From positions 1-32,227 of the forward strand of contig CAOJZZ010000008.1 in assembly GCA_948466315.1 (NCBI GenBank): 32,227 nt of DNA, in the 5' to 3' direction. This document shows positions 1,783 through 30,433 of this stretch, piece by piece. Made by a program: the position numbers and the translations under genes. The notes beneath the pieces were generated by a model that worked only from the letters and a program-made list of their open reading frames with translations, did not search any database and was not told where the DNA came from. The first letter of the stretch is position 1. Each line of letters begins with the position of its first letter. This stretch comes from an uncultured Mycoplasmatota bacterium. Its GTDB lineage: Bacteria > Bacillota_I > Bacilli_A > RF39 > UBA660.

Positions 1783-2724
1783 GTGGAAAATACTATTGAG
1801 GTAAAAAACCTAACTAAAAAATATAAAAACTTAACAGCTATCAATGATTTATCCTTTTCTGTTAAAAAAGGTGAAATATTAGGCTTGTTAGGACCAAATG
1901 GTAGTGGTAAATCAACAACTATAAATTGTCTTTTATCATTGCTATCCTATGATCAAGGAAGTATCAAAATATTTAATGAAGAAATGACACCAGATTCTTA
2001 TGAAATAAAAAGAAAAATTGGTGTCGTTTTTCAAGAAGTAGCCATATTTGAAGAATTAACAGTAAAGGACAATATTGACTATTTCTGTGGTTTATACATA
2101 AAAGATAAAAATACTAGAAAAAAATATATTGAAGATGCCATTAAGTTAGTAGGCCTAGAAAAATTTAAAAAATTCTATCCTAAACAATTATCAGGAGGTC
2201 TTCTTAGAAGATTAAATATTGCTTGTGGTATAGCCCATAAACCCAAATTAATCTTTTTAGATGAACCAACAGTAGCAGTCGACCCTCAAAGTAGAAACAA
2301 TATCCTAGATGGTATCCAAAAACTTAGAAACCAAGGAGCAACCATTATCTATACCACTCATTATATGGAGGAAGTAGAACTTATTTGTGATAGGATAATA
2401 ATACTAGATAAAGGAAAAATAATTGCTAGTGGGACTTTAGATGAGTTAAAATCCTTAGCAACCATCGAAGAAAAAGTAAGTGTAGAAGTCCAAGACTTAG
2501 AAGAAAAATATCTAGAAGAAATAAAAAAATTAAAATATGTAGATTTAGTTACTTATCAAAATAATAATTTACAAATCACTTATAAAAAAGGGCAAAATAA
2601 CATTTCTCATCTAATTGATTTTTTTAATAAAAATAAGATAGCTTATAATAAAATATTTTCTGAAAGACCAACTTTAAATGATGTGTTTTTAGAACTTACT
2701 GGTAGAGAGTTGAGAAACGAATGA
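1783..2724 (+). CDS. ABC transporter ATP-binding protein
   Basis: A 313-residue cytoplasmic ATPase. Walker A is GPNGSGKST (residues 37-45), the Q-loop Gln is at 84 (FQEV), the signature is LSGGL (136-140), Walker B is LIFLDEPT with Glu161 as catalytic base, and the switch His is at 193 (TTHYMEE). The last ~90 residues form the extra C-terminal domain common in drug- and bacteriocin-export ATPases of the ABC-2/CcmA type. The start is GTG, with a weak AGG six bases upstream. The stop overlaps the ATG of the first permease gene (ATGA), and two permeases follow, so the likely complex is one ATPase dimer with a permease heterodimer. Its place after LiaF-like and DUF4097 genes suggests export of, or protection from, a cell-envelope-active compound. 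Confidence 0.9.
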   Translation: MENTIEVKNLTKKYKNLTAINDLSFSVKKGEILGLLGPNGSGKSTTINCLLSLLSYDQGSIKIFNEEMTPDSYEIKRKIGVVFQEVAIFEELTVKDNIDYFCGLYIKDKNTRKKYIEDAIKLVGLEKFKKFYPKQLSGGLLRRLNIACGIAHKPKLIFLDEPTVAVDPQSRNNILDGIQKLRNQGATIIYTTHYMEEVELICDRIIILDKGKIIASGTLDELKSLATIEEKVSVEVQDLEEKYLEEIKKLKYVDLVTYQNNNLQITYKKGQNNISHLIDFFNKNKIAYNKIFSERPTLNDVFLELTGRELRNE

Positions 2725-3902
2725 GACATAACTTTAAATATACTTTAAAAATATTATTTCAAAATAAAGCCTTAATATTTTGGACTTTTGCTTTTCCTAT
2801 TATATTAGGAACTTTCTTTAATATGGCTTTTTCTGATATTGAAAAAAATGAGAAACTAGCTATTATTGACGTTGCTGTTGTCAAAAATGAAAAGTTTGAA
2901 AATGATGAGTTTTTAAAAAATGCTCTTAAAATCTTAAGTGATAAGAAAAACAAGGATCAATTATTCAATATTGAATATGTAAATCAAAAGCAAGCTAAAA
3001 AATTATTAGTAGAGGATAAAATAACAGGCTATTTAATCGTAACTAATAAACCCAAAATAGTAATTAAATCTAATGGTATCAATGAAACTATTTTTAAATA
3101 TATAATAGAAGAAATAACAACTACTAAAAAAATGGTAAATATAATTGCCAATAACCGTTTATATAAAGAAATACCAACTAATAAAATTTCCAATATTGAA
3201 AACTTTTACACTTCAATCTATAAAAAAATTCTTTCCCTAAAAGATGAGTCTATCAATATAAAAGATATTTCTAATAAAAACTTAAGCTATACTATGATAG
3301 AATTTTATACCTTGATTGCTATGGCTTGCCTTTATGGGGGGATTATTGGTATGACCGCTATAAACAATAACCTACCTAATATGAGTAATAAAGGTAAAAG
3401 AATAGCCATAAGTTCTATTCCTAAAAAAAAGCTATTACTTAGTACAGTAGCAGCTTCCTATCTTGTTCAACTTATTGGTCTTATTTTATTATTTATTTAT
3501 ACTATATTTATATTGAAGATCGATTACGGAGATAATATTTTCTTAATTATTCTTTTAAGTCTAGTATCATCCCTTGCTGGACTATCCCTAGGAATTACAG
3601 TATCATGTTTAATCAAATCTTCAGAAAATACTAAAACTGGTATCATTTTAGCCCTAACCATGTTCTGTTGTTTTCTATCAGGTATGATGGGAATTACCAT
3701 GAAATACATAATAGATAAAAACATTCCCCTTCTTAATAAAATAAATCCTGCAAGTATGATTACTGATGGATTTTATTCCCTTTATTACTATGATACTCTA
3801 AGTAGATATACAAAAAATATTATAAGTCTTCTCATCTTCTCTATAATCTTACTTGTAATAGCAACATTCTGTTTAAGGAGGCAAAAATATGATAATATTT
3901 AA
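2721..3902 (+). CDS. ABC-2 family permease (subunit 1)
   Basis: A 393-residue integral membrane protein with ABC-2 exporter topology: one N-terminal membrane segment (about 11-33), a ~150-residue extracytoplasmic domain, then five or so C-terminal membrane segments (about 185 to 385). The motif FAFPIILGTFFNMAF near the N terminus is typical of the ABC-2/YhgE-type permeases. It overlaps the ATPase gene by 4 nt and the second permease by 14 nt, indicating coupled translation. Together with the next gene it probably forms a heterodimeric channel driven by the upstream ATPase. The substrate cannot be told from sequence. Confidence 0.85.
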   Translation: MRHNFKYTLKILFQNKALIFWTFAFPIILGTFFNMAFSDIEKNEKLAIIDVAVVKNEKFENDEFLKNALKILSDKKNKDQLFNIEYVNQKQAKKLLVEDKITGYLIVTNKPKIVIKSNGINETIFKYIIEEITTTKKMVNIIANNRLYKEIPTNKISNIENFYTSIYKKILSLKDESINIKDISNKNLSYTMIEFYTLIAMACLYGGIIGMTAINNNLPNMSNKGKRIAISSIPKKKLLLSTVAASYLVQLIGLILLFIYTIFILKIDYGDNIFLIILLSLVSSLAGLSLGITVSCLIKSSENTKTGIILALTMFCCFLSGMMGITMKYIIDKNIPLLNKINPASMITDGFYSLYYYDTLSRYTKNIISLLIFSIILLVIATFCLRRQKYDNI

Positions 3903-5043
3903 AACATTTTTAAAAATCCTCTTAAAAAATAAGTTTATAATTATAACATATACAGCCATACTGATATTCTTTGGCTGTTTTAATACTCAAACCAATGATA
4001 ACACTACCAACTTTTCTGCAACTAAACCAGATATATTAATTATTAATAAAGATGAAAATAAAGGTCTTACTAAAGATTTAATTACTTATCTAAATAAAAA
4101 TAGCAATATCAAAAAAATACCTGATAAAAAATACTCCTTAGACGATGCTCTCTTTTATAGAGATGTTAATTATATCATTTACATTCCTAAAGATTTTAGA
4201 GAAGATTTCTTAGCTAATAAAAATCCCCAAATAAAAATAAAATCAACAAAAGATTATCAAGCCTCACTTGCTGAAATGATGTTAAAAAGATATTTAAAAA
4301 CAGCAACCATTTATCATAGTGAAATTCCTAACGAAAAAGATTTGTTAGAAAGTATAAATAGCACTTTAAAAGTAAGTACTCAAATCCAAATGACTACTAA
4401 GTTAAATACTAATTCTTTAAATAAAATGATTAGCTATTATAATTTTGCTAACTACAGTATCTTAGCTGGTTGTGTTTATGTTATCTGTTTAATACTTTCT
4501 AGTTTTAAAGAAAAAAGTATTCGTAAAAGAACTATTATCAGCAGTTTAAAAAGTAGTACTTATAATCTAAATCTTTTATTATCAAATAGTCTATTTGCTC
4601 TAATACTTTGGATATTTTATGTTATACTAAGCATCATTTTAGTAGGAAATGCAATGTTTACACCTCATGGTATTTTATTAATTATAAATTCTTTTATCTT
4701 TACTCTTTGTGCCTTAACATTAGCCTTTTTTATAGGAACATTACTAAGTAATAAAAATGCTATTAATGGTATCGTCAATGTAATAGCACTAGGAAGCAGT
4801 TTCTTGTGTGGATCATTTGTTCCTATAGAATATCTTCCTAAAAGTGTTACTCAAATAGCTCATATTCTTCCATCATATTACTATATAAAAAATAATGAAT
4901 TAATCAAGAAAATAGAGATAATAAACTTAAAAACTATAAATGAGGTATTAATAAATGGTATCATCTTAATAATATTTATACTGATTTTTATCTTATTAAC
5001 CAATATCATTTCCAAAAAAAGAAGAGATTTTTCTTATCAATAA
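3889..5043 (+). CDS. ABC-2 family permease (subunit 2)
   Basis: A 384-residue membrane protein with the same layout as its upstream neighbour: an N-terminal membrane segment (about 7-27), an extracytoplasmic domain to about residue 180, and a group of C-terminal membrane segments. The stretch GSSFLCGSFVPIEYLPKSV near residue 310 matches the conserved P-x-x-x-L-P region of ABC-2 permeases. The ATG lies inside the end of the preceding gene and is preceded by AAGGAGG (within codons of that gene), so start choice is secure. It is the last gene of the operon; no clear terminator follows, only about 230 bp of AT-rich DNA. Confidence 0.85.
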   Translation: MIIFKTFLKILLKNKFIIITYTAILIFFGCFNTQTNDNTTNFSATKPDILIINKDENKGLTKDLITYLNKNSNIKKIPDKKYSLDDALFYRDVNYIIYIPKDFREDFLANKNPQIKIKSTKDYQASLAEMMLKRYLKTATIYHSEIPNEKDLLESINSTLKVSTQIQMTTKLNTNSLNKMISYYNFANYSILAGCVYVICLILSSFKEKSIRKRTIISSLKSSTYNLNLLLSNSLFALILWIFYVILSIILVGNAMFTPHGILLIINSFIFTLCALTLAFFIGTLLSNKNAINGIVNVIALGSSFLCGSFVPIEYLPKSVTQIAHILPSYYYIKNNELIKKIEIINLKTINEVLINGIILIIFILIFILLTNIISKKRRDFSYQ

Positions 5044-6423: not shown

Positions 6424-7115
6424 ATGAAGTGTAATCATCATTATGAAGATGACAAAGATAAGAAATGTTGTCCAAAATATATTTTTTGTCTTGGTGCTAC
6501 TGGACCAACAGGTCCAACGGGACCATCTGGAGGCCCAACAGGTTCAACGGGTCCAACAGGTCCAACAGGTTCAACGGGTCCAACAGGCCCAACAGGTCCT
6601 GCTGGTAGTAATGCTAATTCTACCACTTGCTTTTGTGTTGATCAGATGAGAAATGTCATTCAACAAATTATTACTTTATATCCTAATGATAATCTTACTG
6701 TAGCAATGGAAAGTGGTAATAATGCTAGTGGTAGACCAGGATCACTTTTACCTGGACCTAATAATAATCCTAATTCAGGACTTTTCCAATTAGTAAATAA
6801 TCAAGGAACACCAGAAGAGGCTCTATCAATTTGTGGATTGCCTCTATAACAATTACAAGTAGTACTTATAATGATGCTATAACTTATCTTCCTGCACCAA
6901 CACCACAGCCAACAGGATGTGATAGTAATTGTGAAGAAGCTCAGCGTGAATATTTACCAGTAAGAACTACAGGCGTTGATATAAATGCAGGAGGACAAAC
7001 AGTAGCTCAAGGAACCGTTATAAAGAGTGAATATGGCATGGTAGTAATTGTAGGAAATAATAATAGTAATCCAGCTTTCGTATCTTTATGTAAATCAGAA
7101 ATTATAAATAAATAA
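6424..7115 (+). pseudogene. collagen-like (Gly-X-Thr/Pro) surface protein gene with a one-base frameshift
   Basis: The first 23 residues are Cys/His/Lys-rich ([18 protein letters not shown]). Residues about 24-61 are collagen-like triplets ([12 protein letters not shown]) with one phase slip at GPSGGPT. Then comes a C-terminal domain that runs into TAA at 6847-6849. An open frame one base back continues to 7115 with [18 protein letters not shown] and related sequence. Inserting one A between 6837 and 6838 would turn GGA-TTG-CCT into GGA-ATT-GCC and join both parts into a protein of about 231 residues. Such collagen-like proteins with a C-terminal beta domain occur on spore or cell surfaces of Bacillota; location is inferred. 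GAAAGGAG precedes the ATG. The frameshift may be real, variable or an assembly error. Confidence 0.75.
6493..6606 (+). repeat. 9-bp tandem repeats encoding collagen-like triplets
   Basis: Repeated units close to GGTCCAACA / GGTTCAACG code for Gly-Pro-Thr and Gly-Ser-Thr. Local GC is far above the neighbourhood. Such tandem DNA can vary in copy number by slipped replication, changing the length of the stalk. Confidence 0.85.
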
Positions 7116-13797: not shown

Positions 13798-13907
13798 TTA
13801 TTAATATCAAAAGAAAAAACATAGATATATCAAAATCTTACTTTAGAGAAAACAAATAATTGTATTTTTATAACAATATGTTATTATATACACAAAAGGA
13901 ATTAAGT

Positions 13908-14455
13908 ATGAAAGAAGAACTAATTGATGTCTTAGACGAAAATGGTATTAAAACAGCGAAAATATTAACAAGAAACAAGTACATCAAAAAGAATTATGGC
14001 ATCGGATTATTGTTGTTGCTATAGTAAATGAAAATAATGAAATCTTAATTCAACAAAGAAGCAATAATAAAGATAAAAATCCTGGTATGTGGGATATTTC
14101 AGTTACATGACATTTATCAGCTGGCAAAGATTCTCTAACTGCTGCTAATAGAGAAATAAGCAAAGAAGTTAGTGTGAGTTTAGGCTATAGTGTAGAAGTA
14201 AAAGACTTTAGATTTATGTTTTCTTTTAGAAAATAAGAAAAAGTTAATGATAATCATTATGATAGATAATTTTACGACTTCTTCATTTTAAGACAAAATG
14301 GACTAAGAGTTGATAATTTGAAGCTCCAAACTAACGAGGTTCAAGATATCAAATTTGTTAGTCTAGCAGAACTTAATGAAATGAGAGGAAATAATTCTTT
14401 AGTAAATAGAGATGAATGTTATAACAAGTTAGCTAATTACTTATTTAGAATATAG
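13908..14455 (+). pseudogene. decayed NUDIX hydrolase gene
   Basis: The ATG at 13908 has AAAAGGA upstream, but the frame fails after ~23 codons. A missing base near 13970 (AGA-AAC-AAG where AGA-AAA-CAA is expected) shifts the frame. Read in the restored frame, the sequence gives HRIIVVAIVNENNEIL, IQQRSNNKDKNPGMWDIS, then a TGA at 14108-14110 where the NUDIX-box Gly belongs, and SLTAANREISKEV, which has lost the usual box glutamates (K for E). Two more stops follow (TAA after MFSFRK; TAG about 10 codons later) before DIKFVSLAELNEM and the final TAG at 14453. The mix of substitutions and an indel argues for a genuinely dead gene. The original was probably an IDI/NUDIX-like hydrolase of about 180 residues. 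Confidence 0.85.
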
Positions 14456-14475
14456 TAAAAAAAACAGGAGGTTTT

Positions 14476-15828
14476 ATGTTACAAATTGATAATATAAATA
14501 CAATTGAGAGATTAGAAAACATCTTCAGTGAACTTGAAGTTTATTCTATTGATATATCTAGTGCTAAAGCTAATTTGCAAAAAGTTGTTAGTAAATATGA
14601 AAAAGATAAAAGAAAAGACAACAGTAGTAATAATAATACTACTATTGTTATTACACTTAGTGGTAATTATGAATTAGAATTATGCTATGAACTTGGTAAA
14701 ATTGAGTATGATATCAAAGATTATACTCTATTTTTAGATTTAATTCATTTAACTGAAAGCTGTAACTTAAGTATTGATATTGATAATGTTTTTAATTATT
14801 TAGAAACAGCAATTAATCAAGGCTTCTTAGAAAAGTTTTATCAAATAAACATTCAAAGACTAATAATAGAAAGATATCACGATCTTTTACTAAAAAAGAT
14901 TCTAAAGGATTATGAAAAAGGAGAAAAAGAATACTTAGAAAAGTACCAGATTATTAAAGATTTTCCATATCTTAAAAAAAGTATTACTAAATATTTAAAA
15001 GATAATAATATAAATGATATAAAAATAGAAGAATATGACTATAATTTAGAACTATTATTAAAAAAAATTAATATTAAGCCTTCAACTGCTAAAAATGATT
15101 GTGTTGTAGAAAATCATCAATTAATTATCCCTAATATCAATTGCCCTATATCAATTTCTGTCATAATAAATAAATTTATTGAAAAACTAAAATTAATATT
15201 TAAAAACGATACCCAGAAAATCAAGAAACAATTAAGAATATCGAGTTTTGAAAGAATTGATTTTACAGGTTATGATCTATTATATGTTAATTTTAACTAT
15301 AAATTAATTGTAAAATCGAATTTCAAAGGTACTAGAGCTAGAATAAATCCCCAGACTGTTATGGGTAAAAATTTATATGATTGTAATTTAGAAGGATTAG
15401 ATTTAAGTAAAGCTAGGTTTGATAATGTATATATTAGATATACAAGGTTAAAAGGTACCAATGCTAAAATAAACCCACAAACAGTCAAACATAAAGATAT
15501 AGAAGGATGTGATTTAGAAGGTTTAGACTTAAGCAAAGCAAATTTTGATGATGTATCTATAAGATGTGCAAATTTAAAAGGTACTAATTCTATCATTAAT
15601 CCTCAAACTGTTTCATTAGATTGGTATACTTGCTTAATTGGCTGCTATGTAATTAATGACTTTTCTGGATATTCTGACAACATGAGACCTAATTTAGAAG
15701 GAGCAATTTTAGTTGATAGTATGGGTGAAGCTATAGAAAAAAGAAATAACTCACTGCAATCTCCTTTTAACAATTTTTCTAAAGAAGAAGGAAGTAAACA
15801 ATTAATAAAAAAACGGCAAAATAGTTAA
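14476..15828 (+). CDS. pentapeptide-like repeat protein A (two 42-residue repeats)
   Basis: A 450-residue soluble protein with no signal peptide. The first ~250 residues are helix-rich and charged (ERYHDLLLKKILKDYEKGE, FPYLKKSITKYLKDNNI). From residue 284 it carries 42-residue units opening with KGT-x-A-x-INPQTV and continuing with xCxLEGLDLSKAxFDxV...ANL, the A(D/N)LxG rhythm of pentapeptide-repeat proteins: two full units and a third that leads to a cap (GCYVINDFSGYSDN, NLEGAILVDS). AGGAGG precedes the ATG. The next gene is a close paralogue 18 bp downstream, so the two are probably co-transcribed. A right-handed quadrilateral beta-helix in the repeat part is expected from the family; function is unknown. 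Confidence 0.75.
   Translation: MLQIDNINTIERLENIFSELEVYSIDISSAKANLQKVVSKYEKDKRKDNSSNNNTTIVITLSGNYELELCYELGKIEYDIKDYTLFLDLIHLTESCNLSIDIDNVFNYLETAINQGFLEKFYQINIQRLIIERYHDLLLKKILKDYEKGEKEYLEKYQIIKDFPYLKKSITKYLKDNNINDIKIEEYDYNLELLLKKINIKPSTAKNDCVVENHQLIIPNINCPISISVIINKFIEKLKLIFKNDTQKIKKQLRISSFERIDFTGYDLLYVNFNYKLIVKSNFKGTRARINPQTVMGKNLYDCNLEGLDLSKARFDNVYIRYTRLKGTNAKINPQTVKHKDIEGCDLEGLDLSKANFDDVSIRCANLKGTNSIINPQTVSLDWYTCLIGCYVINDFSGYSDNMRPNLEGAILVDSMGEAIEKRNNSLQSPFNNFSKEEGSKQLIKKRQNS
15325..15576 (+). repeat. two 126-bp (42-codon) tandem repeats in protein A
   Basis: Units 15325-15450 and 15451-15576 each open with AAAGGTAC and code for KGT-x-A-x-INPQTV. A diverged third copy begins at 15577 and merges with the C-terminal cap. 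Confidence 0.85.
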
Positions 15829-15846
15829 TAGAAGAGGTGTTTAATC

Positions 15847-17232
15847 TTGCAATTAGATAATATAAATGAAGTTGAAAAATTAACAGCTATTCTCAAAGAA
15901 CTAGAAAATTATTCCATTGATATATCTGAATATTTTCATAGATTAATAGATATTATTAATCAATATAGAAATTATGAACTAGAATTTAGCATAGAACTAA
16001 CTAATCTTGAATATGACATGAGAGACTGTATTTTATTTTTAGACTTGATTCATTCTACAAAAACTTGGGATTTTGAGGTTAATCTTGATGAGGTTTTTAT
16101 CTCTATAGAATATGAAATAACTAGAAATTTTTTAGATGTCTTCAATGATTCAAAAATAAAGCAATTAATAATAGAAAAATATTATGATTTATCTTTAAAA
16201 AAGATTTTAAAAGATTATATAGAAGGTAAAAACACCTATTTAGAAAAATATATGATAATAAAAAACTATCCATATCTTAAAAAAAGTATAATTAAATTTT
16301 TAACCGCTAAAGATATTGATGATATAGAAGTAGATGAATATGATTATGACTTAGAAGGTCTTTTAAATAAAATATTCCAAGTACTTAATAATAACAAAAA
16401 AGTAGTAATACCTGATTTTAATGAATTCATTTATAATGAAGTAAATACTCTAATTAATAATCTAAATAATCATTTCCAAATACAATATCGAGATGATACT
16501 GCTAAAATTATAAAACAATTAAAAGCAATGGGTAAATGTAATTTTAGTAATTTTGATTTCGCTGGGTGGGATTTAAAGTATGTTGATTTTACTAATCAAT
16601 TAATTATAAATTCAATTTTTAAAGGTACCAATGCTAGAATAGACCCTCAAAGAGTTAAATTCAAAAGTATTAGAAATTGTGATTTAGAGGGATTAGATTT
16701 AAGTAGGGTAGATTTTTATGATATAGAAATAACTCATGCTAATTTAAAAGGTAGCAATGCTAATATTAATCCTCAACAAATAAGAAATCTAGATATGTGG
16801 TATTGCAATTTAGAGGGTTTAGATTTTAGTAATGCACGTTTTGATAATATAGGAATTTGTGGAGCTAATTTAAAAGGAACAAAGGCTATAATTGATCCTC
16901 AAAGAGTTAATGCCAAAAGAATTGATTATTGTAATTTAGAAGGGTTAGATTTAAGTGAAGCAAACTTTGATGATGTATTAATGACAGGAGCTAATTTAAG
17001 AGGAACAAACGCTAAAATAAATCCCCAGACTGTCAGATACTTAGACTTAAGTGATACGTGTTTAGAGGGATGTTATGTAATAAATAATTTTAATGGTTAT
17101 AGTGATAAAACAAAACCAAATTTAGAGGGAGTTATTTTAGTTGATAGTCATGACGAAATAAAAGAACTAGAGGATAATCATTATAATCTAAAAAATATAA
17201 GACAAAAAAATTATAAAGTATTGTATAAATAA
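15847..17232 (+). CDS. pentapeptide-like repeat protein B (three 42-residue repeats)
   Basis: A 461-residue paralogue of the preceding protein over its whole length: similar openings (LDNINEVEKLTAILKELENY against IDNINTIERLENIFSELEVY), the same LKKILKDY and PYLKKSI blocks in the helical half, and the same C-terminal cap (GCYVINNFNGYSD, NLEGVILVDS). From residue 259 it has three full 42-residue units rather than two, plus a partial fourth. The start is TTG at 15847, supported by AGAGGTG seven bases upstream and by alignment with the paralogue's N terminus. The pair most likely arose by tandem gene duplication, followed by gain or loss of one repeat unit. Role unknown; a protein-binding scaffold is plausible. 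Confidence 0.75.
   Translation: MQLDNINEVEKLTAILKELENYSIDISEYFHRLIDIINQYRNYELEFSIELTNLEYDMRDCILFLDLIHSTKTWDFEVNLDEVFISIEYEITRNFLDVFNDSKIKQLIIEKYYDLSLKKILKDYIEGKNTYLEKYMIIKNYPYLKKSIIKFLTAKDIDDIEVDEYDYDLEGLLNKIFQVLNNNKKVVIPDFNEFIYNEVNTLINNLNNHFQIQYRDDTAKIIKQLKAMGKCNFSNFDFAGWDLKYVDFTNQLIINSIFKGTNARIDPQRVKFKSIRNCDLEGLDLSRVDFYDIEITHANLKGSNANINPQQIRNLDMWYCNLEGLDFSNARFDNIGICGANLKGTKAIIDPQRVNAKRIDYCNLEGLDLSEANFDDVLMTGANLRGTNAKINPQTVRYLDLSDTCLEGCYVINNFNGYSDKTKPNLEGVILVDSHDEIKELEDNHYNLKNIRQKNYKVLYK
16621..16998 (+). repeat. three 126-bp (42-codon) tandem repeats in protein B
   Basis: Units 16621-16746, 16747-16872 and 16873-16998 code for (K)G(T/S)-x-A-x-I(N/D)PQ... followed by CNLEGLDLS or similar. 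A partial copy from 16999 runs into the cap. The phase is identical to that in protein A. Confidence 0.85.
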
Positions 17233-17319: not shown

Positions 17320-18071
17320 ATGGAAGAGAAAAAAAGACAAATCTAAAATTTTAATAGTAGTAATAATCCTATTAAGTTTTATAATTATAGGAATGGGAAC
17401 TTATATAGCTTATGATAAGGGAGTGATTTTTTCTGAAGTAGATAAAGAGGAAAAACAAAAAAAATAAAGAAAATAAAAAAGATAAAGATGATAAAGAAGA
17501 GCAGAAAAACGACACTAGTAATGATGAAGAGCCTCTAAATTCATCAAAAGCTCTAAATAATATTAATGGTAATACTTACAGTAATCCCTCTGACACTGAA
17601 GGTAATTATGGACTTTTAATTAACATAAATGCAAATAAGAAAAGTATAACACTAAGTATTGATTTTGGTGCGTTAAGTAGTTCTAGTTCTTATGATCCTG
17701 TAACAGAAAAATACCAAATAACAGGATTTTCTAAAGAAGTTATTTCAACATTTGTTGGTGATATAGGACAAGAAGCAAAAGGTATAACTTTATTTTACAT
17801 AATGAATGATCAAACAGTAGAGTATACACCTATATTTAACTTAAAATTTGATAACAATAATAATTCATACTATGAAATGAATTATACCTATGACCAGTTA
17901 ACTGATGGAAGAGTAACTAATCCACATTTTGTTACAAAAGGAAACATTAGTGATGCAAATGGCATTATAAAATTGTATAATACAGATGTTTATAATGGTA
18001 GTGGTTGGAGAACAACTATTGGTACTAAAAAAGATGGGAGTTTTTATGATTTAGGCACTTTTATACAATAG
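17320..18071 (+). pseudogene. membrane-anchored hypothetical protein interrupted at two poly-A tracts
   Basis: GGAGAGAG (17301-17308) precedes the ATG at 17320, which in its own frame stops after eight codons. Dropping one A from the A7 tract (17329-17335) opens KDKSKILIVVIILLSFIIIG, a membrane anchor, running to KEEKQKK and a stop at an A8 tract (17457-17464). Dropping one A there opens a lysine/aspartate-rich linker (ENKKDKDDKEEQKNDTSNDE) and a C-terminal domain of about 185 residues (GNYGLLININANKKSITLSI, NGSGWRTTIGTKKDGSFYD). The last 89 codons, from an internal ATG at 17802, form the longest intact piece with a start. The layout (anchor, charged linker, extracellular beta domain) is common in uncultured gut Bacillota; function is unknown. 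Both breaks are the same type, so assembly error or polymerase slippage should be considered beside real decay. Confidence 0.65.
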
Positions 18072-23678: not shown

Positions 23679-26600
23679 ATGGAAAAAGAGTTAAAAAAAT
23701 ATAATATAGGTCTTGATATAGGAACAACATCAGTTGGATGGGCAGTAGTAGAGGAAAATACTCAAAAAATAATAAGAAAAGGTAAGGGAAATAATAGAAA
23801 AGCATTATGGGGAGTAAGATTATTCGAAGAAGCAACAACAGCCGCTGAAAGAAGAGGCTATAGAAGTAGCAGAAGACGTTATGACAGAAGAAGAAATAGA
23901 ATAAAATTATTGCAACAAGAATTTGAAGAAGAAATAAATAAAGTAGATAAAAGCTTTTATAAAAAATTAACTGAATCAAAATATCAGTCTGATGATAAAA
24001 TAAACAAATCTATTCTTTTAAGTGTCAATGAACAAGCAAAAGTAAAAAAATATAATGATAATTATAAGACAATATATCATTTAAGAAGAAGATTAATAAA
24101 TGATAAAGCCAAAGAAGATATTAGATTAATCTATTTAGCAATTCATCATATCATTAAATATCGTGGTAATTTTTTAAATAGTAATGAAAATTTTAATACT
24201 AATAATCTGAATTTAGTAGATCATATAAAAGGATGTTTTGAAGCATTTATCAACTTAGTACCAACGCTTAATATACCAGAAAACTATGAAGAAATAATAG
24301 ATTTAGAAACTTTAGCAACCACTATTATGGATAATAATAAAAATGATGTAAAGATTAATGTAGAAAACTCATTAAAGAATATCTCAGATAATAAAAAGTT
24401 CCCTTCAGAATTTGCCAAAATAGTCGTAGGAAATAAGTTTAGTATCAAAAATTTATTTTATTTAGAAAGTATTGATAAGAATGATGAAATAACAATTAAC
24501 TTTAGTGAATCAGATATGGATAATTCAGAAAAAGTTGTTAAAATAGAACAATTATTAGATGATAAAATAGAAGTAATTAATTTACTAAAAGAATTATATG
24601 ATGCTATATATTTAAAAAAGTTATTCAAAAATAGTGATAAAGCTTCTTTATCTGAGTTGATGGTTGCAAGATACAAAACTCATAGAGAAGATTTACGCTT
24701 TCTAAAAGATCTTTTTGATAAAGAAAGGAACCTTTATAACGAACTATTTAGAACCAAAAATACTAAAAAAATTTGTTTATATGAAAAGTATATCCATAAC
24801 CAAATAAGTTATGATGAGTTTATTAAGGAATTAAATAAAAGATTAGAAAAAGTCTTTGAATCTGATATTGATAATGCTTTAAAAGAAAAATATACTATTT
24901 TTATTAAAGATAGAATAATTAATAAAGAGTTTCTGCCTAGAATAACTGATCCAGAAAACGGAAGATATCCTTATCAATTAAATAAAGATGAACTTATAAA
25001 AATTATTGAAAATCAAGGTAAGTATTATCCTTTTTTATTAGATAAAGCAGGTAATAAATATAAACTTGTCAAATTATTAGAATTTAGAATTCCATATTAT
25101 GTTGGGCCACTTGTTTCAGAAGATAAAAGTGATTTTGCCTGGATGGAAAGAAAAATTCCAAATGTGAAAATAACTCCTTATAATTTTGATGAAGTAGTAA
25201 ATAAAGAGGTAACAGCTGAAAAATTTATCAAAAGAATGATTTCCCACTGTACTTATTTATTGAATGAACCTGCTTTACCCAATAATTCCATCTTATATTC
25301 ACGTTATAAGGTTATGAATGAACTAAAACAAATTAAAATCAATGGTGAAAAACTAACTCAGGATATCCAACATAAAATAATAGAAGAATTATTTATGAAA
25401 ACATCAGGCTCAATTACAGATAAAAAATTTAAAATTTACTTACATAGCTTAAATGAATTTAGTATGCTTGGTAACAATATAAATATCACAGGCTACTCAT
25501 CAGATGAAAAATTTGCTAACAACATGCAGTCATATGTTGATTTCTTTGGAGAAAATGGCATATTTAAAGATACTAGTTATAATGAAGAAGATGCTGACGA
25601 GATTATTGAATGGATTACTATTTTTGATGATAAAGATATTTTAGAAAAGAAAGTAAAGGATAAATATAAAGAATTAAATCCTGAAAAAATAAAAATGATT
25701 TTAACTAAAAAATATAGTGGTTGGGGAAATTTATCTAAAAAGTTATTAACAGAATTATCAATAAAAGATAAAAAGACTAATACTTCAAAAAATATTATGA
25801 CTTTATTATCTGAAACAGAAGAGAATTTTATGCAAATTATTAATAATGATGAGTATAAATTTCAAGACTTAATCAAGAAAAATAATGTAATAAAAGAAAC
25901 TAAAAAAATAAATTATGACTTAGTAAAAGATCTAGCAACCTCTCCATCAACTAAAAAGGGTATTTATCAGGCTTTAAAGGTAATAGAAGAATTAATAAAG
26001 TATATGGGATATCCCCCAACCAATATTATGATTGAAATGGCTAGAGAAAATAATAATAAAAAAGAAAGAACTTTGGATAAAAAGAAATACTTGTTAAAAC
26101 TATATGATAAAATAAAAAATGATTATAAAGATATTTATTCAGAATTAAAAAAAGTAGATAAAATTGATAGCCAGAAGTTATTTTTGTATTTCATTCAAGA
26201 AGGCAAATGTTTATATAGTGGAGAGCCTTTATCAATAGAAAATTTAAATGAATACGAAATAGATCATATTTTACCTAGAACTTTAATTAAAGATGATTCC
26301 ATCGATAATAAAGCTTTAGTAAAAAGAGAATGTAATCAAATAAAAGCAGCCAATTTTGTTTTACCAGAACAATATCGAAGTAGTTATATGAGGAAATGGT
26401 GGAATCACTTAAAAAGTGTTAATCTTATATCTGCTAAAAAGTTTTACTTATTAACAAGATCATCTTATAATGATAAAGATATTCAAGGTTTTATTAACCG
26501 CCAATTAGTAGAGACTAGACAAATAACAAAACATGTAGCTAATATAATAAATAATTTTTATAAAAACACTAAAGTTATCTATTTAAAGGCTAATCTATCA

Positions 26601-27764
26601 CATAACTATCGAGAAAGATTCGAACTATTTAAGTTTAGAGAAATAAATGATTATCATCATGCTCATGATGCTTACTTAGCTGTAGTTTTAGGAGAATATA
26701 AAGAAAAATTCATGAAGAGAGAAATTAACTTTACTATGGTAAAAGTGATGAATGATAAGTTAAGATCATTAGGAAATTATAAACAGTTAAAATATGGCTT
26801 TGTAATCAATAGTTTAGACGAAAATGTGAGTGAAATTGTTACTGAAATTTCTAAGAATATGATAGACGAGAATACAGGTGAAGTGTTGTTTGACGCTAAA
26901 ACATTTAATGAACAAGTGGAAAAAACACTTTATCGGAATGATATTTTAATAAGTAAAAAAACAGAAGTTAGAAGTGGAGAGTTTTTTAACCAAACAAAAG
27001 AGCCTAAAGGAGGGAAGGGAGTTCCATTAAAGAAAAATATGCCAATAAAAAGATATGGTTCATATACTAGTTTAAAGCCAATTTATGCTGTGTTGTTAAA
27101 GTATGAGAAAAAGAAAAAATATGAACAGAAATTAGTAGGAATGCCAATCTACTTAGCAAAATCACCTGAAGATATGCAAACTAACTATTTTAAAGGATTG
27201 TTAGAATTAGAAAAGGATTCTTATTGTGAAGTTATTAGTAAACCTTTACCTTTTTACTCCTTATTAAATTGGAATAATCAAATATGTTATTTAGTTGGAG
27301 CATCCAATAAGGTAGAAGTATGCAACGCTAAAGAATTTCATTATCACAAAAATTTTTATAAATCACATAAACATATATTAAATAAAGTGTTTAATAATAA
27401 CAAAATAGAAATTGATGAAACAGTTTATGATAATGGATTAGATGATGTAATTAAATATATAATCAACAAAATAGAGCAAGAATATGTATTGTTTGATAAT
27501 TTAATTAGTGAGTTAAAGAATATAGTACAGTATGATGATATGGAGGTATTATCCATAGAAGATAAAGAGAATATAATTATTCAATTAACTAAATTATTAA
27601 ATTGTAAGAGCGAAAATGCCAATTTTAAACTTTTAAATTCTTCCTATTCATCTGCTTTTGGAAGAAAACACAATAAAATTATTGATAATGCCTCTGTTTT
27701 ATCATTATCAGTAACAGGTATAAAGGAAAATGATTATGAGCTTTCGGACAGTAGTAATAACTAA
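23679..27764 (+). CDS. cas9: CRISPR-associated endonuclease Cas9 (type II-A)
   Basis: A 1361-residue RNA-guided DNA nuclease. RuvC-I has catalytic Asp13 (GLDIGTTSVGWAV); the arginine-rich bridge helix follows (ERRGYRSSRRRYDRRRNRIK, about 58-77); RuvC-II has Glu786 (IMIEMARE); the HNH domain has Asp862-His863 and Asn886 (EIDHILPRTLIKDDSIDNKA, then ECNQIKA); RuvC-III has His994 and Asp997 (HHAHDAYLAVV). All residues for both strand cuts are intact. The C-terminal ~260 residues form the PAM-interacting part, with RYGSYTSLKPIYAVLLKY in the place of the SpCas9 KKYGGFDSPTVAYSVLV region. AAGGAG lies about ten bases before the ATG. The end overlaps the cas1 start. The PAM cannot be read from sequence alone. 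Confidence 0.96.
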   Translation: MEKELKKYNIGLDIGTTSVGWAVVEENTQKIIRKGKGNNRKALWGVRLFEEATTAAERRGYRSSRRRYDRRRNRIKLLQQEFEEEINKVDKSFYKKLTESKYQSDDKINKSILLSVNEQAKVKKYNDNYKTIYHLRRRLINDKAKEDIRLIYLAIHHIIKYRGNFLNSNENFNTNNLNLVDHIKGCFEAFINLVPTLNIPENYEEIIDLETLATTIMDNNKNDVKINVENSLKNISDNKKFPSEFAKIVVGNKFSIKNLFYLESIDKNDEITINFSESDMDNSEKVVKIEQLLDDKIEVINLLKELYDAIYLKKLFKNSDKASLSELMVARYKTHREDLRFLKDLFDKERNLYNELFRTKNTKKICLYEKYIHNQISYDEFIKELNKRLEKVFESDIDNALKEKYTIFIKDRIINKEFLPRITDPENGRYPYQLNKDELIKIIENQGKYYPFLLDKAGNKYKLVKLLEFRIPYYVGPLVSEDKSDFAWMERKIPNVKITPYNFDEVVNKEVTAEKFIKRMISHCTYLLNEPALPNNSILYSRYKVMNELKQIKINGEKLTQDIQHKIIEELFMKTSGSITDKKFKIYLHSLNEFSMLGNNINITGYSSDEKFANNMQSYVDFFGENGIFKDTSYNEEDADEIIEWITIFDDKDILEKKVKDKYKELNPEKIKMILTKKYSGWGNLSKKLLTELSIKDKKTNTSKNIMTLLSETEENFMQIINNDEYKFQDLIKKNNVIKETKKINYDLVKDLATSPSTKKGIYQALKVIEELIKYMGYPPTNIMIEMARENNNKKERTLDKKKYLLKLYDKIKNDYKDIYSELKKVDKIDSQKLFLYFIQEGKCLYSGEPLSIENLNEYEIDHILPRTLIKDDSIDNKALVKRECNQIKAANFVLPEQYRSSYMRKWWNHLKSVNLISAKKFYLLTRSSYNDKDIQGFINRQLVETRQITKHVANIINNFYKNTKVIYLKANLSHNYRERFELFKFREINDYHHAHDAYLAVVLGEYKEKFMKREINFTMVKVMNDKLRSLGNYKQLKYGFVINSLDENVSEIVTEISKNMIDENTGEVLFDAKTFNEQVEKTLYRNDILISKKTEVRSGEFFNQTKEPKGGKGVPLKKNMPIKRYGSYTSLKPIYAVLLKYEKKKKYEQKLVGMPIYLAKSPEDMQTNYFKGLLELEKDSYCEVISKPLPFYSLLNWNNQICYLVGASNKVEVCNAKEFHYHKNFYKSHKHILNKVFNNNKIEIDETVYDNGLDDVIKYIINKIEQEYVLFDNLISELKNIVQYDDMEVLSIEDKENIIIQLTKLLNCKSENANFKLLNSSYSSAFGRKHNKIIDNASVLSLSVTGIKENDYELSDSSNN

Positions 27765-28608
27765 GCAATCAAAAATTAGCTATAAAAATAGATTTCTAGT
27801 AGTAAAACAAGATACTGATGAAAAATATATACATTTATCAGAAATAGACACAATTATAGTCGACTCTATCTCTGTTTCTATTTCAGCTTACTTACTAAAA
27901 GAGTTATCTTCTAATAAAATTAATATAATATTTTGTGATGAGAAACATAATCCTTTTGGTGAATTGGCTTCTTTTTATTCTAGTCATAATAGTAGTAAAA
28001 AAATAAAAAATCAAATTTCTTGGACTAAATCTAATAAGGATAAATTATGGACTAATATCGTAAAGAATAAAATATTAAATCAAGCAATGATTTTAAAAAA
28101 TACAGGTTCTGATAAAAGTGAGCTGCTTTTGAGTTATATAGACGAAGTCACTATCGGAGATAAAACAAATAGAGAAGGGCACGCCGCTAAAGTATATTTT
28201 AATGCTTTATTTGGTAATAATTTTATAAGAGATGAAGATAATAAAATAAATGCTGGACTAAATTATGGTTATGCTGTTTTACTTTCAACTATAAACAAAG
28301 AAATTATTAGTAATGGTTATTTGACTCAATTAGGAATTCATCATAAAAATGAATTTAATGAATTCAACTTAACTTGTGACTTAATGGAACCATTTAGACC
28401 AATTATTGATAATTTCGTCTATTTTAACTCTAATCGTAATTTTGATACTAACTATAAATTAGATATAATAAATATTTTCAATAATACATATAAATATCGC
28501 GGAAAGAACTTTGTTCTAAAAGATATTATAAAAATGTTTATAAAAACAACTTTAGAATCTATTGATAATACAGAAAATTATAAGGATTTTTTATACTATG
28601 AGGGATAG
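27736..28608 (+). CDS. cas1: CRISPR-associated endonuclease Cas1 (type II)
   Basis: A 290-residue spacer-integration nuclease acting with Cas2. The N terminus MSFRTVVITKQSKISYK and the middle GELASFYSSHNSSKKI match type II Cas1. The metal-binding residues lie in NREGHAAKVYFNALFG (Glu), LTQLGIHHKNEFNEFNL (His) and CDLMEPFRPIID (Asp/Glu), so it should be active. I prefer the ATG at 27736: AAAGGA is eight bases upstream and the MSFRTVV start agrees with the family, whereas the ATG at 27730 is only two bases from it. The gene overlaps the end of cas9 by 29 bp, in another frame, and cas2 starts 4 bp after its stop. Confidence 0.94.
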   Translation: MSFRTVVITKQSKISYKNRFLVVKQDTDEKYIHLSEIDTIIVDSISVSISAYLLKELSSNKINIIFCDEKHNPFGELASFYSSHNSSKKIKNQISWTKSNKDKLWTNIVKNKILNQAMILKNTGSDKSELLLSYIDEVTIGDKTNREGHAAKVYFNALFGNNFIRDEDNKINAGLNYGYAVLLSTINKEIISNGYLTQLGIHHKNEFNEFNLTCDLMEPFRPIIDNFVYFNSNRNFDTNYKLDIINIFNNTYKYRGKNFVLKDIIKMFIKTTLESIDNTENYKDFLYYEG

Positions 28609-28612
28609 AATT

Positions 28613-28918
28613 ATGAGAACAATTATATTTTTTGATTTACCTACTGTATATTCTAAAGACAAAAAGGATTATTTACTATTTAGAAAATATTTATTAAAAG
28701 AAGGATTTATTATGATGCAAAAATCAGTTTATTCAAAAATAGTACTTAATTCTCAACAATCAAAATTATTAATAGAAAGAGTGCGTAAAGAAGCACCAAA
28801 AAAAGGATTAGTACAAGTATTAACCATTACTGAAAAACAATATTCTCAAATAGAATATATTATCGGGGAATCAAACAGTAAAATTATTAATAGCGAAGAA
28901 AGACTAATAGTATTATGA
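28613..28918 (+). CDS. cas2: CRISPR-associated protein Cas2
   Basis: A 101-residue partner of Cas1 in the spacer-integration complex. It begins MRTIIFFDLPTVYSKDKKDY, the usual Cas2 opening with a ferredoxin-like first strand and Asp8, followed by YLLKEGFIMMQKSVYSKIV and VQVLTITEKQYSQIEYI, as in type II-A Cas2. I chose the ATG at 28613, eight bases after GAGGGA; earlier in-frame starts would extend into cas1 and spoil the family N terminus. The stop TGA overlaps the csn2 ATG. Confidence 0.93.
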   Translation: MRTIIFFDLPTVYSKDKKDYLLFRKYLLKEGFIMMQKSVYSKIVLNSQQSKLLIERVRKEAPKKGLVQVLTITEKQYSQIEYIIGESNSKIINSEERLIVL

Positions 28919-29595
28919 AGTTAAAGATTAATTATTTTGATAATAATATAATTATCACTAATGATAAAGTATTTGTAATAGAAATAGAAAATAAAAAGTA
29001 CTTTTATAGATTTGTAAACGATTTATACAATATTTCCAATGGAGATATACTTGAAGATATAACTTTCTTTGATAATAAAAATACAGAAATAAATATATCT
29101 AATAAAATAAATATTTTTACAAATTATTTTGAATTTAACTTTAATTCTAAGAAATATCAAAGTGATATAAATAAATATATAATAGAAAATATTTCTGATG
29201 TTGATAAAAATACCATATTAACTACATATAAAAAGTTAATATCTTCAACCAAAACTATACTAAATAAAGCAGAACTACCTATATGTATATCTATAGAACA
29301 AACGATAGAAAATATAATAAAATCACTAAAAATAAATATAAATAGTAAAGATGATTTACTAGAAAATCTATTACTAATTATAGATTTAGAGAAAAACTTA
29401 AAAAGTAATTATTTATTAATATTTGTAAATTTAAAACAGTATTTATCAAATAACGAATTAAATGAATTATATAAGTATGCAATTTATAATGATATATTTA
29501 TATTATTAATTGATTCACAATGTTATGGGGGAACCAAAGAATATGAAAATAAATTAATTATAGATAACAATTTAGACGAATTTATGTTAAAATAA
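28915..29595 (+). CDS. csn2: CRISPR-associated protein Csn2 (type II-A)
   Basis: A 226-residue protein. Csn2 forms tetrameric rings on DNA ends and is needed for spacer acquisition in type II-A systems; its presence defines the subtype. The sequence is very AT-rich and diverged, but length, position directly after cas2, and the pattern (strand-rich start KLKINYFDNNIIITNDKV; helical middle DKNTILTTYKKLISSTKTIL; late strands YLLIFVNLKQYLSNNELNEL and NDIFILLIDS) fit the short Csn2 class. It overlaps cas2 by 4 nt (ATGA) and is followed by 77 bp of leader before the first repeat. Confidence 0.85.
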   Translation: MKLKINYFDNNIIITNDKVFVIEIENKKYFYRFVNDLYNISNGDILEDITFFDNKNTEINISNKINIFTNYFEFNFNSKKYQSDINKYIIENISDVDKNTILTTYKKLISSTKTILNKAELPICISIEQTIENIIKSLKININSKDDLLENLLLIIDLEKNLKSNYLLIFVNLKQYLSNNELNELYKYAIYNDIFILLIDSQCYGGTKEYENKLIIDNNLDEFMLK

Positions 29596-29672
29596 AACAA
29601 ATGACAAAATAATATCATCTAAAATAATATATATTACTCTATGGTATATATTATAGATTTTAACCTTTTGAG
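29596..29672 (+). promoter_or_regulatory. CRISPR leader
   Basis: 77 bp between the csn2 stop and the first repeat. It holds an extended -10-like TGGTATATA (29642-29650), a 10-bp perfect dyad (ATAATATATA and TATATATTAT around 11 nt), and ends in CTTTTGAG directly against the first repeat, resembling the leader-anchoring sequence (ATTTGAG type) that guides Cas1-Cas2 in type II-A arrays. It also has a short inverted copy of part of the repeat at 29610-29625. Its side is set by the decaying repeats at the other end. Confidence 0.7.
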
Positions 29673-30433
29673 GTTTTAGATCTATGTCATTTTAGATGGT
29701 ATTAAAACACTAATAAACCAATACTTACTAAAAAGATTGTTTTAGATCTATGTCATTTTAGATGGTATTAAAACCTTACTTGAGAGGTGCTTACTTGGAA
29801 GGTGGTTTTAGATCTATGTCATTTTAGATGGTATTAAAACATAGTTTTATCAGTGAGGTGTAGAATGAGAGTTTTAGATCTATGTCATTTTAGATGGTAT
29901 TAAAACTATTATAGTAAAAAATATCGAAGGATATGTGTTTTAGATCTATGTCATTTTAGATGGTATTAAAACTCCAACATACGACCGTAATATTTTCCCC
30001 AAGTTTTAGATCTATGTCATTTTAGATGGTATTAAAACTCCAACATACGACCGTAATATTTTCCCCAAGTTTTAGATCTATGTCATTTTAGATGGTATTA
30101 AAACATGAGTTTGAACGTGTATTTGAAATTGATGGTTTTAGATCTATGTCATTTTAGATGGTATTAAAACGTTTGTTTTTTACCAAAAACTGTAGGTATA
30201 GTTTTAGATCTATGTCATTTTAGATGGTATTAAAACATAAAAATGGTTAGTTATAAAGCATGTAGAGTTTTAGATCTATGTCATTTTAGATGGTATTAAA
30301 ACAGGTACACCTGGTGGTAAATTTAGTATGTTGTTTTAGATCTATGTCATTTTAGATGGTATTAAAACAAAAGATTTTATAAATCAAATGGTCGTATGTT
30401 TTAGATCTATGTCATCTTATATAGTATTAAATA
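29673..30433 (+). CRISPR. type II-A CRISPR array, 12 repeats and 11 spacers
   Basis: Repeats are 36 bp, opening GTTTTAGATCTATGTC and closing GATGGTATTAAAAC, starting at 29673, 29739, 29805, 29871, 29937, 30003, 30069, 30135, 30201, 30267, 30333 and 30398. The first eleven are identical. Spacers are 30 nt, except the last (30369-30397, 29 nt). Spacers 5 (29973-30002) and 6 (30039-30068) are identical. The twelfth repeat has at least five changes in its second half (CATCTTATATAGTATTAAATA), marking the leader-distal end. The GTTTTAG opening and pairing with the minus-strand tracrRNA show transcription runs in the + direction from the csn2 side. Confidence 0.98.

Follow-up and report, generated by a model that had tools for sequence, protein, structure and literature searches.

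Pentapeptide-repeat proteins (Pfam families PF00805, PF13599 and PF13576) are the closest described relatives of two adjacent genes, here called A and B, on a 32,227-nucleotide stretch of DNA from an uncultured Mycoplasmatota bacterium (contig CAOJZZ010000008.1; the whole stretch is hereafter the window). According to the part of PMC8145042 available to us, this family is defined by at least eight contiguous pentapeptides, its fold is known but the function of most members is not, and loops and small bulges have been reported in it. Like these proteins, A and B have five-residue faces with a central hydrophobic L, F or I after N or D, and a predicted four faces per coil. Unlike them, they have a regular seven-residue face per two coils within a fixed super-unit of 42 residues, a large helical N-terminal domain without a name and a conserved cap. 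We put the probability at about one half that A and B are cytosolic, non-enzymatic binding scaffolds built on a bulged pentapeptide beta-helix. As a finding the pair is solid: it represents a known fold in a variant specific to one lineage, with an unnamed partner domain, and not a new kind of system.

In the loop-bearing members QnrB1, AhQnr and AlbG, as predicted for A and B, protruding residues interrupt the beta-helix. QnrB1 differs in its two unique loops, one of 8 and one of 12 residues (same part of PMC8145042), whereas A and B have a predicted two-residue bulge at a fixed phase. The NCBIfam cut-offs of Qnr and MfpA are not reached by A or B, and the best NCBIfam models for both are the cyanobacterial Alr5209 and HetL, against which B scores 44.5 bits (cut-off 125) and 34.6 bits (cut-off 260), respectively; the text available to us on these two proteins speaks of no 42-residue unit. 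Knotted Solenoid proteins are likewise beta-solenoids and were compared by their authors with pentapeptide-repeat proteins, but in the available part of PMC13123833 the solved members come from Brevundimonas and have three-sided coils and typically 100-160 residues. They were rejected as the identity of A and B on two features, the other bacteria and the coil shape.

The 42-residue unit and its predicted fold

Genes A and B are separated by 18 bp (Table 1). The motif (K/R)G(T/S)xAxI(N/D)PQ occurs at residues 284, 326 and 368 of A, the last with S in place of A, and at residues 259, 301, 343 and 385 of B, every spacing being 42; LEGLD(L/F)S recurs at residues 305 and 347 of A and 280, 322 and 364 of B. 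As the final motif of each protein leads into the C-terminal cap, the three motifs of A correspond to two complete units and the four of B to three, which makes five altogether. The cap pattern GCYVIN.F.GYS...P.L...ILV.S is common to A, B and five relatives. The periodicity is clear in the C-terminal parts, where identity at a lag of 42 was 0.30 in A and 0.43 in B, compared to maxima over all lags of 0.214 and 0.210 in 2000 shuffles. Any two complete units share 48-64% of their residues and 63-75% of their bases, which indicates an old repeat and excludes an assembly stutter, and the A/B pair must also be old, since the DNA identity of no complete-unit pair exceeds 75%. The proportions of nonsynonymous and synonymous differences between A and B (pN 0.28 and pS 0.59 over 400 aligned codons) indicate that selection acts on the protein sequence. 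The motif positions confirm the view of the preliminary description, made from the sequence alone, that the two genes are paralogues in tandem, one with two units and the other with three, and that five copies keep an exact length. Its claim that they differ by one repeat unit holds for the unit count and not for the total length, as the proteins are only 11 residues apart overall because the N-terminal half of A has an extra stretch of 21 residues, among other differences. In the genome of the window (1.5 Mb in 79 contigs, 71% complete), a search with B finds only A and B. A separate short protein with canonical-looking pentapeptide repeats is present in the same genome (contig C33, 10982-11095, in a 208-aa frame).

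Both proteins pass the gathering cut-off of PF00805 (20.2 bits) with 46.1 bits for A and 58.5 bits for B, and a new repeat family was therefore rejected. The central hydrophobic residues of each unit follow in steps of 5,5,5,5,5,5,5,7, which makes eight faces or two four-sided coils, and the two surplus residues fall at the GTxA step, on the face G-T-x-A-x-I. Uninterrupted five-residue runs are thus at or slightly below eight, with seven fives and then a seven per unit. Among 43 motif-started 42-residue stretches from the window proteins and from those of L019-L025, 31 have hydrophobic residues at positions 6, 11, 16, 21, 26, 31, 36 and 41. In a position table made of these 31, chosen for their fit to the face pattern with the 12 misfits excluded, P and Q are near-fixed, as is the residue type (I, L, F) at most faces. 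An AlphaFold2 model of B, built from 12 sequences, has block means of 91-96 for the predicted local distance difference test (pLDDT) across residues 271-430. Its strands match the steps of the sequence, except that two faces per unit lack a strand call, and it places a short helical turn at PQxV in each unit. The best rows of a Foldseek search with this model are the synthetic beta-solenoid 4yc5 (E 6e-7) and, second, HetL (8e-6), and the next rows include QnrB1, NP275-NP276 and MfpA. The early suggestion of a defined structural feature per 42 residues thus agrees with the model, which predicts a seven-residue face with a two-residue bulge and the helical turn. The proposal that the unit differs from the usual five-residue repeat is not supported; the unit consists of two pentapeptide coils (8 x 5 + 2 = 42). 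The preliminary description would have been refuted by a match to a described repeat family with known function, and half of this applies: the unit matches such a family (PF00805), while according to the part of PMC8145042 cited above most of its members have no known function.

The N-terminal domains of A and B are 47% identical. Residues 1-229 of B modelled alone with AlphaFold2 are predicted to be all helices, with a mean pLDDT of 78.5 and a predicted template modelling score (pTM) of 0.70, residues 183-199 being below 50. The domain has no Pfam family above cut-off and no sequence match in the PDB at E <0.2; the best match in PHROGs is at E 0.026, the single match in NCBIfam at E 9.4, and the best in PADLOC is that of one of seven members to a type IV Cas7 model at E 0.11. 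Foldseek against the PDB gave nothing at E 0.001 (best 0.31). VIA-align gave short helical matches, chiefly covering residues 1-72 and within the helical-bundle range of the tool, with E. coli RF2 (Z 8.9, 2.4 Å over 67 residues) and DnaK at the top. Of seven members only B matched ProRS-C_2 of Pfam (E 0.0048, 17.4 bits, cut-off 25), and this weak match was discarded. These searches bear out the original impression of a helical domain without a recognised family, and the case adds a domain that is unnamed in every library searched. The domain is present in 4 of the 145 genomes of the window's bacterial family, its own genome counted, and in one of 198 genomes of a class sample, namely its own.

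Relatives, copy number and fusions

A scan for the motif pattern in a collection of 84,980 genomes gave 19 stretches. Twelve were confirmed as relatives, every one from a record titled as uncultured Bacilli, Tenericutes or bacterium. With a unit profile (A3, nine rows), 21 of the 145 family genomes were positive at E 1e-10, the own genome counted. At E 1e-15, 17 of 241 genomes were found in an order sample and 3 of 296 in a class sample, every one in the window's family, and at E 1e-10 there were 3 of 392 in a phylum sample, one of them (G569) outside it; the share of genomes from outside the family was not counted in these three samples. Of the three loci in G569, the one that could be read consists of plain A(D/N)LXX repeats and lacks the 42-residue unit. 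Scans of viral contigs found no relative. Matches to B in 75 phage records and 10 plasmid records (7 of them cyanobacterial) are all below 60% identity and below 80% coverage of B, and we take them as generic pentapeptide matches. We rejected the idea that canonical pentapeptide proteins are near-absent from the window's family: the Pfam model was found in 1 of 98 genomes at E 1e-8 and in 39 of 98 at E 1e-3, indicating that the low figure is a threshold effect, and many of the looser matches are in frames of about 190-240 residues. No description of a 42-residue pentapeptide unit, or of INPQTV, was found in the open-licence literature searched, which does not prove it unpublished.

The phase of the unit is conserved. 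In 41 proteins from fetched loci, selected for a match to the unit profile and including the close copies L029 and L030, 109 of the 139 distances between successive motifs measure exactly 42; of the 30 others, 13 come from five L067 proteins and three are 84 or 126. These five tandem proteins (L067, 6128-14717, minus strand) retain the motif and the common C-terminus but not the 42-residue spacing, and some of them repeat their leader domain internally. The unit in L028-L030 is of a GSFDGVDV type with, by eye, one four-residue and one eight-residue face, and its length is still 42. Tandem gene arrays occur in G127 (six genes, the contig stopping just after them), G062 (five), G068 (five) and G086 (two genes and the beginning of one more), and most array genes begin with short leader domains, as judged by eye. 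Neighbouring units in L028 are up to 98% identical in DNA, units that belong to two side-by-side genes in L066 reach the same value, and two paralogues in G009, 91% identical over their first 240 bases, have eight and four motifs, indicating that whole units are gained, lost and exchanged. Five close full-length relatives are under purifying selection, with nonsynonymous rates (dN) of 0.02-0.10, synonymous rates (dS) of 0.08-0.32 and dN/dS of about 0.2-0.4. Both the phase conservation and the variation of copy number, for which a profile search and a survey had been proposed at the outset, are thus seen among the relatives.

The unit is also joined to other domains. In G133 it is preceded by a tubulin/FtsZ-like GTPase (PF00091, 4e-18, 66.8 bits, cut-off 33), which is probably not FtsZ itself, since it scores 116 against the FtsZ equivalog with its cut-off of 295. 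The C-terminal tail of the tubulin-fused protein matches A and B at 41-50% identity and has no match in five other genomes. A DnaB_C ATPase carries the unit in G125 (PF03796, 1e-36, 127 bits, cut-off 27), and WG repeats carry it in G086 (PF14903, 8.5e-51, 170 bits, cut-off 25.6). G124 was not counted as a WG fusion: its WG protein (L082, 433-2484) has only pentapeptide scores under the cut-off, and the best unit match of the contig sits in the neighbouring frame (2580-4334). Two loci with such fusions were noted. At L081 (5382-6701, minus strand), a diverged tubulin/FtsZ-like GTPase is followed by units of the 42-residue type and a CPFCG-type tail, and at L071 (4926-6272) a DnaB-like ATPase core is joined to four motifs of the unit in a frame that runs off the contig end.

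Weighing the explanations

A binding scaffold fits these results best, because no catalytic family was found in either half, the repeat is portable on several heads, its length changes by whole units and close relatives show purifying selection. In such a scaffold the C-terminal half would be a beta-helix of pentapeptide repeats. Every unit would form two coils with four sides, and of the eight faces seven would have five residues and one would have seven. A two-residue bulge would lie at the same edge of every second coil (G-T-x-A-x-I), beside the predicted helical turn at P-Q-x-V, and the bulges would stack as a ridge, probably bending an otherwise straight tower. Gain or loss of units would alter the tower length with the phase unchanged, so that the unit count would set the length of the scaffold, while the helical domain may be the part specific to a partner or effector and the conserved cap would close the beta-helix. 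The N-terminus, judged by eye, suggests a cytosolic location. With a bulge built into its super-unit, a copy number that varies between close paralogues and fusions to named domains, the variant offers a natural length series and natural bait domains for finding what such solenoids bind.

Several observations weigh against this explanation. The five full-length relatives in L022, L023 and L025-L027 keep the N-terminal domain and the cap with one motif and zero complete units, indicating that the array is non-essential to the job of the N-terminal domain. The pTM of the whole B model is 0.50, which gives little confidence in the relative placing of the two halves. The top Foldseek rows fit poorly as whole shapes (query TM-scores ≤0.20, root-mean-square deviation (rmsd) 10-13 Å). 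In VIA-align, AlbG is at the top (Z 11.5, rmsd 6.2 Å over 184 residues) and leucine-rich repeat (LRR) proteins are about equal, with InlC2 at Z 10.6 and rmsd 3.6 Å over 189 residues, a tie by the rule of the tool. Because of these poor superpositions and the tie, the support for the bend is indirect.

A further reading, tentative and rather unlikely, would make the bulged double coil a mobile block in its own right, belonging to one family of uncultured Bacilli. It would lie between the straight pentapeptide tower and the curved LRR arc, spread by duplication of units and genes and be joined to domains with a cytomotive role (tubulin/FtsZ-like) or driven by ATP (DnaB-like). If true, it would provide length-tunable binding arms plugged onto varied effector heads, like modular immune receptors.

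Alternatively, A and B could be the recognition arm of an intracellular, immune-like conflict system, in which multiplication and reshuffling of units and genes would keep pace with invader proteins. The tandem arrays (six, five and five genes, and two with the start of a third), the unit exchange and copy-number change in the relatives and a CRISPR-Cas system 6 kb downstream of the genes would agree with this, and the available part of PMC7159879 counts pentapeptide repeats among the repeats that serve as scaffolds in conflict systems of prokaryotes, where FtsZ/tubulin effectors are rare. We nevertheless consider it unlikely. The PADLOC match of the N-terminal domain is only that at E 0.11 in one of seven members, the flanks of the arrays, by eye, include the housekeeping genes for mutS, ribosomal protein S20 and lysyl-tRNA synthetase, and A and B are an old pair in which recent unit exchange is not seen. 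None of the partners named in that part of PMC7159879 (MoxR, vWA, tubulin, HSP70) was recognised beside A and B, although no systematic search was made, and an AAA ATPase gene at 19923-20885 matches bpMoxR below the cut-off (20.4 against 27).

The gene neighbourhood raises a different explanation. In L022, L025, L026, L027 and G076 (L070), the gene of the relative is preceded by a response regulator-histidine kinase pair and followed by a pair of ATP-binding cassette (ABC) ATPase and FtsX permease, all on one strand, with an intervening 113-aa frame in L070 and the permease in two frames in L026; in L023 the kinase pair is upstream and the contig ends after the gene of the relative. The four neighbours in L025, the only ones scanned, are each above the Pfam cut-off for the expected domains, and the other loci were assigned through matching N-termini. 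The arrangement resembles a Bce-type peptide-antibiotic module, and the protein could thus be an accessory of antimicrobial-peptide sensing that couples the histidine kinase to the ABC transporter; an ABC-FtsX fusion protein in the window, which ends 678 bp upstream of A with a broken gene in between, is in line with this. Yet the six carriers are close relatives (dS up to 0.46), so that the context counts as one event, and the arrangement is missing at the window, in G027 and in G113. The five full-length relatives have a single motif and no array, and the NCBIfam names for the L025 kinase and ABC proteins are all under cut-off, the kinase being nearest to SapS (213 bits, cut-off 550). Such a coupling role is quite improbable, and the neighbourhood is a lead only. 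The search for partners by neighbourhood, as originally proposed, thus gave a context in one group of close relatives without a match in G027 or G113.

That the repeat half is an LRR-like curved solenoid instead of a pentapeptide tower is very unlikely. LRR proteins (Z about 9-10.6) do superpose on B with a lower rmsd in VIA-align, mostly 3.6-5.5 Å compared to mostly 5-7 Å for pentapeptide-repeat proteins, and NLEGLDLSxAxF evokes an LRR strand by eye. But LRR_1 reaches only 12.7 bits in B (cut-off 20.6) and is not listed for A, whereas PF00805 passes, and Foldseek ranks pentapeptide-repeat proteins better by E-value. The tighter superposition on LRR proteins hints at, but does not prove, a bending of the predicted tower by its bulges.

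A topoisomerase-protecting DNA mimic of the Qnr/MfpA/AlbG kind is highly improbable, for although the beta-helix family is identical, AlbG is the top VIA-align row and weak NCBIfam Qnr matches exist, the best Qnr family gives 32.8 bits against 240 and MfpA 21.6 against 360, HetL is also far under its cut-off, and by net charge (-4 in B 230-384, +3 in A 257-367) the repeats show no strong acidity. Qnr, MfpA and AlbG members are not known to have such an N-terminal domain.

Feature coordinates and surroundings of A and B

Table 1. Positions of genes A and B and of their parts in the window.
Feature	Position	Strand	Basis
Gene A, 450 aa, ATG start, 2 complete units	14476..15828	+	Open frame, AGGAGG just 5' of start; relatives
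Gene B, 461 aa, TTG start, 3 complete units	15847..17232	+	Open frame; N-terminus alignable to A and relatives
A helical N-terminal domain, about residues 1-256	14476..15243	+	Alignment with B and relatives
A unit 1, residues 284-325	15325..15450	+	Sequence period
A unit 2, residues 326-367	15451..15576	+	Sequence period
A C-terminal cap, begins with last KGTNSIINPQTV motif	15577..15828	+	Motif spacing, cap alignment
B helical N-terminal domain (predicted), residues 1-229	15847..16533	+	AlphaFold2 model of domain alone
B lead-in coil (predicted) 5' of first unit, residues 230-258	16534..16620	+	Five-residue steps in model
B unit 1, residues 259-300	16621..16746	+	Sequence period; model pLDDT block means 87-96
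B unit 2, residues 301-342	16747..16872	+	Sequence period; model pLDDT block means 94-95
B unit 3, residues 343-384	16873..16998	+	Sequence period; model pLDDT block means 94-96
B C-terminal cap, begins with last RGTNAKINPQTV motif, ends in predicted helix (435-451 in model)	16999..17232	+	Motif spacing; model

Just 5' of A, a frame resembling a NUDIX hydrolase by eye (13907-14456) has a frame change and several stops, from decay or from sequencing errors. A gene 3' of B (about 17320-18071) has a hydrophobic N-terminal stretch and one or two frameshifts, around 17340 and 17465. The CRISPR-Cas system of the window is of Type II-A, with Cas9 (1361 aa), Cas1, Cas2, Csn2 and an array of about 66-bp period (23679-29595 and 29669-30369). 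A small protein at 6424-6849 carries collagen-like GPTGPTG repeats and scores 21.0 bits against Pfam Collagen, of which the cut-off is 27.2.

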